64,000 nt of DNA from Actinomycetes bacterium. GTDB lineage: Bacteria > Actinomycetota > Actinomycetes > Mycobacteriales > Mycobacteriaceae. This document shows, piece after piece, positions 11,687 through 39,976 of the stretch (the first letter of the stretch is position 1; every line of letters begins with the position of its first letter). The DNA lies in contig JAHZIT010000005.1 in assembly GCA_022601275.1 (NCBI GenBank), positions 21,777 through 85,776 of the forward strand, in the 5' to 3' direction. The translations under genes were made by a program, and so were the position numbers. The notes under the pieces were generated by a model, which ran no database searches, was not told the origin of the DNA, and saw only the letters and a program-made list of their open reading frames with translations.

Positions 11687-13105
11687 ATGGGGTTAGCCGA
11701 CCGCGTCGAGCGAAAACTAGAGAACACGGTCGGCAACGCGTTCGCCAGGGTTTTCGGTGGATCAATCGTGCCGCAGGAAGTGGAGACCCTGCTGCGCCGC
11801 GAGGCAAGCACCGGTACTCAGGAGGTGCACGGTGGCCTGATTTTGGCCCCGAACGACTACATCATTACCCTCAGTGTGCCTGATTACCTCAAGGTGAGTG
11901 CCGACCCGGACATCACCTCGACCACATTCGCCAAGCACTTGGAGGGATACATCCATGAGCAAGGGTGGCAAACGTATGGTGATGTGGTTGTCAGATTCGA
12001 TCAGTCGCCCAACCTGCACACCGGACAGTTTCGCGCGCACGGCGCGGTCAACCCCGACTCGACCGCCAGCGAACCCGCCCCACCTCGAGACCTATCGTCC
12101 AACGCAAGACCAGGAGTTCTACCGATGACCGACAATCCGAGCTACCGCGGCCAGGGACAGGGTCGGCCCGAAGACGAGCATTACAACCGGTCCGAGGACG
12201 AGCGTCCCCCCCGTCCCGATGAACAGCGCCAGCATCCCCCGGCCGAGCAGGGCGGCTACCCACCGCAGGGCGAGCCCTACTATCCGCCGCGCGGCGGTTA
12301 CCCGGGACCGGGCGGCGGATACCCCGACCAAGGTGGCTATCCAGGCCACGGATACCCGCCTCCGTCCTATGACCAGCGGCCGCCTCCGGGATACGGCCCA
12401 CCGCAGGGTGGATACCCCGACCAGGGCTATCGCCAGGCACCCCCGGGTTACGGGCCGCCCCCCGGCGGACAACCCGGGTATGACTACGGCCGCCCCCCCG
12501 GCCGGCACGAAGAAGGCGGCTACGCCCCCCCGGGCCGCCCCGCGTACCCCGAACAAGGCGGGTATCCCGACCAAGGCGGATACCCCGACCAAGGTGGATA
12601 TCCCAACCGGGGCGGATACCCCGACCAGGGCGGATACCCCGACCAAGGCGGATACGCGCCGCAGGGTGGCCAGCCTTACGGCCGCCAGGAGTACGCCCAG
12701 CCCGACTACGGACGCTACGGCGAGGACCCAGCCGCGGCCGGCTACAGCGAGGCCCCTGCCGCGGCCGGCTACAGCGACCAGGGTTACGGGGAGGCTCAGG
12801 GCGAGAACTCCGCTGCGGGATCGGCGGTCACGCTGCAGCTCGACGACGGCAGCGGGCGCACCTACCAGCTACGCGAGGGCGCCAATGTGATCGGACGCGG
12901 GCAAGACGCCCAGTTCCGACTGCCCGACACAGGAGTGTCCCGTAGGCACACGGAGATCCGCTGGGACGGGCAGGTCGCGCTATTGTCAGACCTCAACTCC
13001 ACCAACGGCACGACGGTGAACAACGCTCCGGTACAGGAATGGCAGCTGGCCGACGGCGACGTCATCCGGCTCGGACACTCCGAAATCATCGTCCGCGTTC
13101 ACTGA
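11687..13105 (+). CDS. fhaA: FHA domain protein FhaA (DUF3662 N-terminus, Pro/Gly/Tyr linker, C-terminal FHA)
   Basis: [39 protein letters not shown]-rich linker; C-terminal [26 protein letters not shown]; first gene of the pstP/pkn cluster. Confidence 0.95.
12552..12655 (+). repeat. 18-bp in-frame tandem repeat encoding GGYPDQ in the FhaA linker
   Basis: Successive ggcggataccccgaccaa-type units. Confidence 0.85.
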
Positions 13106-34064: not shown

Positions 34065-35258
34065 TCAACCGGGAAGGCGCACCGGCATCAACAAATAGAC
34101 GTAGTCCGTTTGAGCCGCCGAGAACGGACCCTCGCCGCCGGCGACGCCATCCTCCTCGCCGGCCGGACGCAACACCGCTGGCCGGCTCGGTGTGGTGAAA
34201 CCGAACGTGACTTTCTCGGCATGAAGGGAACCGAGGCCGTCGGTCAAGTACGTCGGATTGAAGGCGATGGTCAGCGGACTCCCGGCGAACTCCACCGGCA
34301 GATCCTCCTCTGCCCGACCCACATCGTCAGCACCGGCGGACAACCGCAGCACGCCGTCGCCGAACTCCATCCGTACCTGTGCTCCCCGGTCAGCGACAAG
34401 GGCGACGCGCTTGATCGCCTCGGTCAGCTCGGCAACGGCCATCGTGGCCACTGCTGTGTGTTCGCTGGGAAGTAGCTGCCGGAATTTTGGGAACTCCGCA
34501 TCCAGCAGTCGGGTCGTGGAACTCTTTCCTTTGCTGCGAATTCCGAGCAGGCCTTCGCTGCCCACTGTCGGCCCCGACCCCAGTGACAGGTGCACTTCTT
34601 CGCCGTCGGTACCTGCCTTCGCCGCTTCGGCCAAGGTTCTGGCGGGAACCAGTACCTCCACTTCCACGCCGGTCGAAGCGGTCGCCCAGGTCAGCTCCCG
34701 CACCGCCAGCCGAAAGCGGTCGGTAGCGGCCAAAACGACCTTTTCTCCGGAGATCTCCACTCTGATTCCGGTCAACATGGGCAAGGTGTCATCGCGTCCC
34801 GCGGCGACAGCCACTTGCCCGATGGCTTCGGCAAACAGATCCGAAGACAGCACGCCGGTTTCGTCGGGCAGCGTCGGCAACGTGGGGTAATCCTCGACAG
34901 CCATCGTCGGGAGGGAAAAACGAGCGCTACCGCACGTCAAGGAGACCCGGGTCCCTTCGGCGCTCACGTCGACCGGCTTGGCCGGTAACGACTTGACAAT
35001 ATCGGAGAGCAGCCGGCCGGATACCAAAACGCTTCCAGGAGAGGCTATCTCAGCAGGAATCTTCACTTCGGCGGAGACTTCGTAATCGAATCCCGAGACG
35101 GTCAGTCCGTCGTCGGATCCGGTGAGAAGCACACCCGCCAGCACCGGCACCGTCGGCCTGGAAGGAAGATTGCGGGCGACCCAGGCAACCGCATCGGCGA
35201 AGTCTTCGCGGGTCAATCGAAATTTCAAATCCGTGAGACCTGCTGCCGCCACGTTCAT
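34065..35258 (-). CDS. dnaN: DNA polymerase III beta clamp
   Basis: [35 protein letters not shown]...; position in dnaA-dnaN; start [10 protein letters not shown] taken at 35258. Confidence 0.98.
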
Positions 35259-35469
35259 AGCGTCCCTTCGATGCACACCCCGACAAAAACGTCAATCAGC
35301 GATTTCCGGTGTCGCACACCGCGCCGCCCGGACGCGCTACGCCGACCGAAACGGCTGTCGATGAACCACCGTAGAGCCTCTGGGCCCAACTTGAAAGCTA
35401 ATCGGCTGGGCTGACATCAGTGGGTAAACGGACCACCCGAACACGCCTGTTCCGAGTTTCCCCAGGGCT

Positions 35470-35515
35470 CTTCTTCTAGAGGAAATTCATAGATTTGTAA
35501 CAGCAGTAGTAATAG
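35470..35515. promoter_or_regulatory. Candidate DNA unwinding element (AT-rich tract)
   Basis: ttcttctagaggaaattcatagatttgtaacagcagtagtaatagg flanked by DnaA boxes in a high-GC background. Confidence 0.6.
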
Positions 35516-35673
35516 GACCTGTGGAGATTGTGGATAGGTGCGGTGCTGCGCTGTACAGCGGTGCCAGGCGGGTGTTGGTGCGTTGTGGATAGCCGGTGGG
35601 TGGCGACGGGGTGGTTGGGGATACCGGCACAGGTGGGGAGGAAATCGGGGGAGAAGAGGGTCTTGACCCCATC

Positions 35674-35682
35674 TTGTCCACA
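35674..35682 (+). promoter_or_regulatory. DnaA box TTGTCCACA
   Basis: Exact actinobacterial-type DnaA box; CTATCCACA boxes lie on the opposite strand at 35529-35537 and 35584-35592. Confidence 0.8.
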
Positions 35683-35763
35683 CGGCGGTCCACAGGGCGG
35701 GTCTGTGACAGTTGGGACGGCAGGGGCGAAAGTTTTTTGACATTGGGTGTGCGGCAGCGGCCG

Positions 35764-35852
35764 GCTGAGGCGGGGAGGGTTCAGGCGGGGAGGGTTCAGG
35801 CGGGGAGGGTTCAGGCGGGGAGGGTTCAGGCGGGGAGGGTTCAGGCGGGGAG
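35764..35852. repeat. Six-copy 15-bp G-rich tandem repeat (caggcggggagggtt) in oriC
   Basis: gcggggaggg cores at 35768, 35783, 35798, 35813, 35828 and 35843. Confidence 0.95.
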
Positions 35853-35884
35853 GGCCGGAGATTCCGGGGGAAGAGTCGGTTATG

Positions 35885-37369
35885 TCAGCGCTTGGCGCGC
35901 TGACGGATTCGGGTGGTGAGTTCTTTCACGTGATCGAAGATCTCATGGCGCTGGGCCATCTCGGCGCGAATCTTTTTCTCCGCGTACATCACGGTGGTGT
36001 GATCGCGTCCGAACGCCTGGCCGATCTTGGGCAGCGAAAGGTCGGTCAGTTCGCGGCAAAGGTACATCGCGATTTGCCGCGATTGCGCCAGAGCGCGGGT
36101 CTTGCCGGGTCCGCGGAGCTCCTCGACGCTCGTCTCGAAGTATTCCGCGGTGGCTGCCATGATCGACGCAATACTGATCTGCATGGTGGAGGAGTCCGAG
36201 ATCAGATCACGGAGCACGATCTCGGCGAGGGATTTGTCGATAGGGGTCTTGTTCAGCGAGGCAAATGCCGTGACGCGGATGAGGGCGCCCTCCAGCTCGC
36301 GAATGTTGCGTTCGATCCGGCTGGCGATCAGCTCGAGTACGTCGTCGGGTACCTCCAACCGATCCATCCGAGCTTTCTTGCGCAGGATGGCAATTCGGGT
36401 TTCCAGTTCCGGCGGTTGTACGTCGGTGATCAGTCCCCACTCGAACCTGGTTCGCAAGCGGTCCTCGAGAGTAGCCAGTTGCTTGGGTGGACGATCGGAG
36501 GAGATGACGATCTGCTTGTTGGCGTTGTGCAGGGTATTGAAGGTGTGGAAGAACTCCTCCTGGATGCCGTCCTTGCCCTCGATGAACTGAATGTCATCGA
36601 CGAGCAGGACGTCGATGTCTCGATAGGTGCGTTTGAACGAGGCCCGGCGATCGTCGCGGAGCGAGTTGATGAAGTCGTTGGTGAATTCTTCGGTGGAAAC
36701 GTACTTGACCCGCATGCCGGGAAACAGGCGCTGGGCGTAGTTGCCGGCCGCGTGGAGTAGGTGGGTTTTGCCCAGCCCCGATTCTCCCCAGATGAAGAGG
36801 GGGTTGTAGGCGCGGGCAGGAGCTTCGGCTATCGCAAGAGATGCCGCGTGGGCGAAGCGGTTGGAGGAGCCGATCACGAAGGTGTCGAAGGTATAGCGAC
36901 GGTTCAAGTTGATCGAGTTGTCGTCGTCTGCGGAAGACCCGTTGGACCGGCGGTTGAAGTAGGTGGGCCAGCTCTCTTCGGCGCTGGCCAGGGCCGCCGC
37001 GTCTTCGTCCTCCTCGTCGCTGTCGGGGGAGGGGGCGGGCTCACGAAACTCTTGATGTTCGGTGTCGGGGCTGATCGGGGTTTCGTCCTCTGGATCTGCG
37101 ATGCGGACCCCCAGCTCAACACGCTGGCCGAGTTGCTTGCTCAACGCGGCGATAATCGGTTCGCGCAGGTGGCGTTCGATCTCGTTCTGGACGAACGGGG
37201 TAGGTACCGACAGCAGAGCGAAACCCTCGGTGATGACCAGGGGACGCACCAGTTTGAGCCAGGCCCGTTGCTGGGGAGTCAACGACGAGGCCTCGCCAGA
37301 ATCGCCGTTGAGTTCGGTGACGACACGGTTCCATATGGCGACGAACGGGGGATCGGGGTTAGCTGTCAA
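35885..37369 (-). CDS. dnaA: Chromosomal replication initiator DnaA (probable TTG start)
   Basis: [50 protein letters not shown]; domain [17 protein letters not shown]; start chosen at ttgacagctaaccccgat. Confidence 0.98.
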
Positions 37370-37423
37370 TGAGACGCACCCCCTAGCGGCCGGCCCAGAG
37401 ACGGCCAAAGTACCGGGAACGAT

Positions 37424-38814: not shown

Positions 38815-39976
38815 TTGGATGAGCCTCGACGTCATCTACTACCCGGTGTCGGCGATCATGTGGATTTGGTACAAGGCCTTCGCCTTCGTGCTCGGCCCGG
38901 CCAACTTCTTCGCCTGGGCGCTATCTGTGGTGTTCCTGGTCTTCACCCTGCGCGCGATCCTCTACAAGCCGTTCGTTCGGCAGATCCGCACGACCCGCCA
39001 GATGCAGGAACTGCAGCCCCAGATCAAGGCGCTGCAGAAGAAGTACGGCAAGGACCGTCAGCGCATGGCGCTCGAGATGCAGAAGCTGCAGCGCGAACAC
39101 GGCTTCAATCCCGTGCTGGGGTGCCTCCCGATGTTGGCGCAGATTCCGGTGTTCATCGGTTTGTTCCACGTCTTGCGATCCTTCAACCGAACGGGCGGGT
39201 TCGGGATCGGGCACCTCAACTTGTCGGTCGAAGAAAACCGACGGCTCGGCAACTACGTGTTCAGTGCCACCGACGTAGGAAACTTCCTCGACGCGAACTT
39301 CTTCGGCGCGCCGCTCGGTGCGTTCATGACACAAAAAAGCGGACTGGAGGCGTTCACCCAGTTCGGCGAGTTCAGTAGGCCGGCGCTGATCGCGGTAACG
39401 GTGCCGATCATGATCGCCGCGGGTATCGCAACGTACTTCAACAGCCGGGCGTCGGTGGCAAGGCAAAGCCCCGAGGCGGCGGCCAGCCCGCAGACCGCGA
39501 TGATGAACAAGCTTGCGCTCTATGTGTTTCCGCTCGGCGTCGTGGTGGGTGGGCCGTTCCTGCCGCTGGCGATCATCATGTATTGGCTGGCCAACAACAT
39601 CTGGACCTTCGGCCAGCAGCACTACGTGTTCGGCAAGATCGAACACGAAGAAGAGCAGAAGAAGCTCGAAGCCCTGGAGCGCCGCGCCGCCAATGCGCCG
39701 GCCCCCGGCGCCAAGCCGAAACGGAAGAAGAAGGCGGGTGCCGGCGCGGCGGGAACCGCGCAAGAAGTGATCTCGGCACCGGATGGTGCGGAGACGGCAG
39801 AGCCCAAGGACGAGACGGCCCGGGGGTCGGGGTCGGCCAAGGGTGGCCAGGGCGGAACGGCGCGTGGGTCGGGGTCGGCCAAGGGTGGCCAGGGCGGCAC
39901 CAAACCGGCGGCCCGCAACGGCGCGGCGAACCGCACGCCCAAACCCGGCGCTCGGCCGAAGAAGCGGAAACGTTGA
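38807..39976 (+). CDS. yidC: Membrane protein insertase YidC
   Basis: [68 protein letters not shown]. Confidence 0.98.
39818..39902 (+). repeat. Two-copy 42-bp in-frame duplication ([14 protein letters not shown]) in the YidC C-terminal tail
   Basis: gggtcggggtcggccaagggtggccagggcgg repeated at a 42-bp offset. Confidence 0.9.

Follow-up and report, generated by a model that had tools for sequence, protein, structure and literature searches.

This locus raises the question of why a perfect G-rich tandem repeat stands beside a mycobacterial replication origin, and whether it acts there. The DNA came from an uncultured Mycobacterium represented by a 3.4-Mb assembly of 194 contigs, the only genome found for its species and assigned to the genus by its gene order and its named relatives, and we analysed a 64,000-nucleotide stretch of it (the window). 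TRF detected a tandem array at 35768-35854 (+ strand) with a period of 15, 5.8 copies, 100% matches and a score of 174. Five 15-bp units, AGGCGGGGAGGGTTC, start at 35768, 35783, 35798, 35813 and 35828, and a sixth of 12 bp, AGGCGGGGAGGG, starts at 35843 without the final TTC. Apart from that shortened last copy, this was the arrangement described in an initial annotation, six head-to-tail G-rich 15-bp copies between dnaA and dnaN. The + strand of the array is G-rich and the dnaA-sense strand C-rich. The best score among 30 first-order Markov surrogates of the 64-kb window was 65; the near-identical head-to-tail units exceed chance, as in a minisatellite or VNTR. When the genome assembly was searched with a two-unit pattern allowing up to 2 mismatches, only the dnaA-dnaN array matched, and the repeat is thus a single-locus one and not a MIRU, whose copies are dispersed at many loci. 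Two array units had no exact match in viral contigs, the only Rfam families detected were tRNAs away from the locus, and a tandem array in a mycobacterial oriC was not found described in the open-licence literature.

The array lies between two genes on the − strand, dnaA, encoding the replication initiator (35885-37408; Pfam Bac_DnaA, 3.6e-77), whose stop codon is 30 bp from the array, and dnaN, encoding the DNA polymerase III beta clamp (34065-35258; Pfam), which has a probable ATG at 35258 and its longest ORF from 35276. Since the dnaA-dnaN interval works as oriC in M. tuberculosis (PMC2607554), the oriC interval here would be approximately 35259-35884. Within it, 29 bp from the array, is a conserved element of the AAAAACTT type, AAAAAACTTT (35729-35738, − strand), which matches the A+T-rich site opened by DnaA in M. 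tuberculosis oriC. DnaA boxes were found by consensus search at 35674-35682 (+ strand, TTGTCCACA, an exact match to the consensus used), 35584-35592 and 35529-35537 (both − strand, CTATCCACA). The last of these adjoins a DnaA-trio-like run, CTATTACTACTGCTGTTA (35498-35515, − strand), 253 bp from the array, whose start motif occurs in 139 of 148 mycobacterial spacers. The motif GTCACAG (35703-35709, − strand) lies within the palindrome CTGTCACAG and is a possible MtrA site. A tandem GTCACAG repeat of 2.7 copies was also seen in the spacer of another species (G298), 105-123 nt past the dnaA stop, and possibly represents clustered MtrA sites.

We extracted 148 distinct dnaA-dnaN intervals of the genus, including the array-bearing one; all 148 sampled congeners encode a close DnaA (77-90% identity). 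By a simple pattern, the AAAAACTT element recurs in 125 of the 148 intervals. Its match in M. tuberculosis oriC is an A+T-rich stretch (oligonucleotide ...TTCTTAAAAAAACTTCTCTA), where DnaA opens the helix in vitro, as judged by a KMnO4 footprint at −500 to −518 from dnaN (PMC2607554). A CTATTACT... run directly follows a DnaA box in 139/148 intervals, a layout that fits the DnaA-trio of the basal unwinding system (PMC8287927). Most of the 148 spacers therefore carry two conserved candidate opening elements (35498-35738 in the window), one backed by the published M. tuberculosis footprint and the other by the trio model, at an almost invariant distance of 222 bp. The median distance from AAAAACTT to the trio is 222 bp (interquartile range 221-223), and it is 222 bp in the array genome. 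The spacer from the dnaA stop to AAAACTT ranges from 12 to 235 nt (median 60.5), and the coefficient of variation is 0.04 for core length versus 0.66 for spacer length. Conservation is 0.15-0.33 bits before the AAAACTT element, near background, and 1.26 bits within it.

The array falls wholly inside this free spacer, between the dnaA stop and the AAAAACTT element, and the first DnaA box (35694/35682) comes after it. The array had been placed inside oriC; this holds in that it lies within the dnaA-dnaN interval, but it precedes the first DnaA box and is outside the length-conserved core, and it therefore borders the origin core. The core of the array genome aligned with those of its nearest relatives (G357 and G371) without gaps, except for one A in an A-run. 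Given this and the normal 222-bp length, we conclude that the array was added next to an origin core that is itself intact. With all but one unit removed, the spacer would be about 71-74 nt, near the typical median.

A comparison of the dnaA-dnaN intervals of relatives, which had been proposed as a check, recovered neither the array nor a comparable one from any of the 147 other distinct spacers. The nearest case was a 12-bp unit in 3.7 copies at 84%. The alignments listed to congeners stop near query position 217-236 and restart no earlier than about position 361. Distant genera gave C-rich alignments across the array part of the query, but these fall on different contigs or well away from the dnaA match and look like composition hits. 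The array, judged from these sequences, is not a feature of the genus and does not behave as a conserved oriC element. It may nevertheless predate the single species, because the closest relatives by core similarity are only about 77-79% identical over the core. Lineage restriction (absence from 147 spacers) and a length-tolerant location (spacer of 12-235 nt) are both properties of a minisatellite or VNTR.

The genome around the array is itself rich in tandem repeats. In samples of 571 kb of the array genome and 664 kb of 23 relatives, analysed with the same settings, tandem loci numbered 289/Mb and 90-91/Mb, respectively, an approximately threefold excess, although MAG contigs, whose ends lie near repeats, are here compared with mostly finished genomes. 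Periods not divisible by 3 numbered 37 in the array genome versus 14 in the relatives (p = 2e-4), and arrays of four or more copies at ≥95% identity numbered 9 versus 0. Other arrays in the genome include 15-bp units in 7.5 and 5.7 copies and a 32-bp unit in 3.6 copies. Thus, the oriC array is one of many. PE/PPE-like genes and the ends of MAG contigs may account for part of the excess; loss of NucS was ruled out as a cause, as nucS is present. Within the window, an 18-bp unit in 6.2 copies (12545-12655) encodes a YPDQGG repeat, which we take to resemble the repeat region of mycobacterial FhaA, and a 42-bp duplication (39815-39897) lies in the C-terminal tail of a YidC-like ORF.

We consider it likely that the array is a lineage-specific minisatellite, produced by slippage or unequal recombination in the unconstrained stretch that separates the dnaA stop from the oriC core. 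Three options had been offered for the repeat, G-quadruplex formation, binding of a repeat-binding protein and a replication-slippage VNTR, and the last is the best supported because the copies are identical, the array is absent elsewhere, spacer lengths vary widely and the genome is rich in arrays. Replication slippage or unequal recombination would have expanded one 15-bp C-rich/G-rich stretch, with a gain of about 72-75 bp; slippage as the mechanism, a recent origin and near-neutrality are what we infer from the pattern. Judging from gene order, the G-rich strand would be the lagging-strand template for the fork leaving oriC into dnaA. When single-stranded, it would probably fold into up to three G-quadruplexes, and this folding may promote the array's own slippage; we do not take it as an evolved origin function.

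The folding potential is strong in silico. With at least four runs of G3+ and short loops, the array has the sequence of a G-quadruplex, and the claim that it satisfies the G3+N1-7 pattern many times over was borne out, since every adjacent unit pair fits, giving three side-by-side motifs on the + strand. A suggested G4Hunter run gave a mean of 1.80 and a maximum of 2.12 over the array in 25-nt windows, predicting strong potential on the G-rich strand; only about 0.004% of 25-mers in 285 kb of the array genome reach 2.12. ViennaRNA (RNA parameters) returned −44.4 kcal/mol with quadruplexes allowed and −21.8 kcal/mol without. These values, together with the 29 bp that separate the array from the sequence that matches the site of KMnO4 sensitivity in M. 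tuberculosis oriC (PMC2607554), would suit a switch in which the G-rich strand folds as AAAAACTT opens and holds or blocks unwinding, with copy number modulating initiation. We regard such a switch as unlikely. G4 motifs near dnaA on the G-rich strand are isolated, non-repeat and scattered among a few other spacers; they are expected there because the dnaA-sense strand has a C-over-G bias, and they are not conserved, so that of the proposed G4 formation at the origin the predicted potential stands but conservation does not. Furthermore, dnaA is transcribed from the G-rich strand, and in E. coli plasmids this orientation showed no R-loop-driven G4 (PMC7023247); the DnaA-trio run, the other candidate site of opening, is 253 bp from the array. 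A slippage-driven, reversible control of initiation, in which origin firing is tuned by the copy number of a G4-forming array 29 bp from the element that DnaA opens, is very unlikely.

Read from the other strand, the six units would be CCCTCCCCGCCTGAA in the dnaA mRNA and could form a Rho-utilisation-like C-rich 3' UTR that loads Rho and stops transcription before oriC. The C/G ratio is 4.8 against a median of 2.06, the highest of the 148 spacers (78-nt windows, first 200 nt past dnaA), the RNA is nearly unstructured across the array, and the spacer is generally C-rich. The C-over-G bias, however, extends over most of the intergenic region's left half, as fits origin strand skew, and the first 60 nt show hardly more structure than a control stretch. 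This makes a Rho site quite improbable. A terminator hairpin, CCGGAATCTCCGG, just past dnaA was rejected separately, because the first 60 nt are no more structured than shuffles (z −0.3) and across 148 species barely differ from the control stretch. Identical head-to-tail units beside an origin also recall iterons that bind DnaA or another initiation-controlling protein, but the array holds no DnaA box at ≤1 mismatch, its unit is single-locus and absent from the other species examined, and a 15-bp period is not a whole number of helical turns; we give this reading little credence, and the repeat-binding protein suggested earlier finds no support in a unit unlike a DnaA box. The period is divisible by 3 and a mechanical ORF (35747-36760, + strand) is open through the array, which could then encode an RRGGF repeat. 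That ORF, mostly antisense to dnaA, has no Pfam match, and DNA of such G+C content is expected to hold long antisense ORFs; the chance of a coding repeat is negligible.

The minisatellite reading has parallels. Like the mycobacterial MIRU-VNTR and ETR loci, which consist of head-to-tail near-identical units in or between genes and are attributed to slippage, the array is a candidate strain marker; it differs in that its 15-bp unit occurs at a single locus without an interspersed family and is known from one genome. In M. tuberculosis, as in Beijing strains, the dnaA-dnaN interval tolerates IS6110 at more than one position (PMC3294723, PMC3701491), and such insertions likewise add DNA to this interval in a viable mycobacterium. 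IS6110 is, however, a transposon of known cause and the array a repeat expansion, and the comparison is of the interval and not of the exact site relative to the core. Mycobacterial G-quadruplex motifs (PMC5515968) share the G3+N1-7 sequence but were studied in promoters, whereas here a perfect array with predicted G4 lies beside the origin. Plasmid iterons are likewise tandem units beside a replication origin; the array differs in its lack of an initiator-binding motif and of conservation, and in being very G+C-rich.

With the opening element 29 bp away, an effect of the array on replication initiation is possible. Nearness to that element (29 bp or 253 bp, depending on the model) and predicted folding would argue for such an effect; against it stand the absence of conservation, a spacer that accepts many lengths and the IS6110 insertions tolerated by M. 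tuberculosis in its dnaA-dnaN interval. The array is ordinary in kind and notable in place. It provides a natural test of the amount of G-rich, repeat-rich DNA that can stand next to the opening element of a mycobacterial origin, and the general fact that it brings out is that the length of the dnaA-side spacer is free, whereas the core from AAAAACTT to the trio is held at about 222 bp in nearly all sampled mycobacteria.
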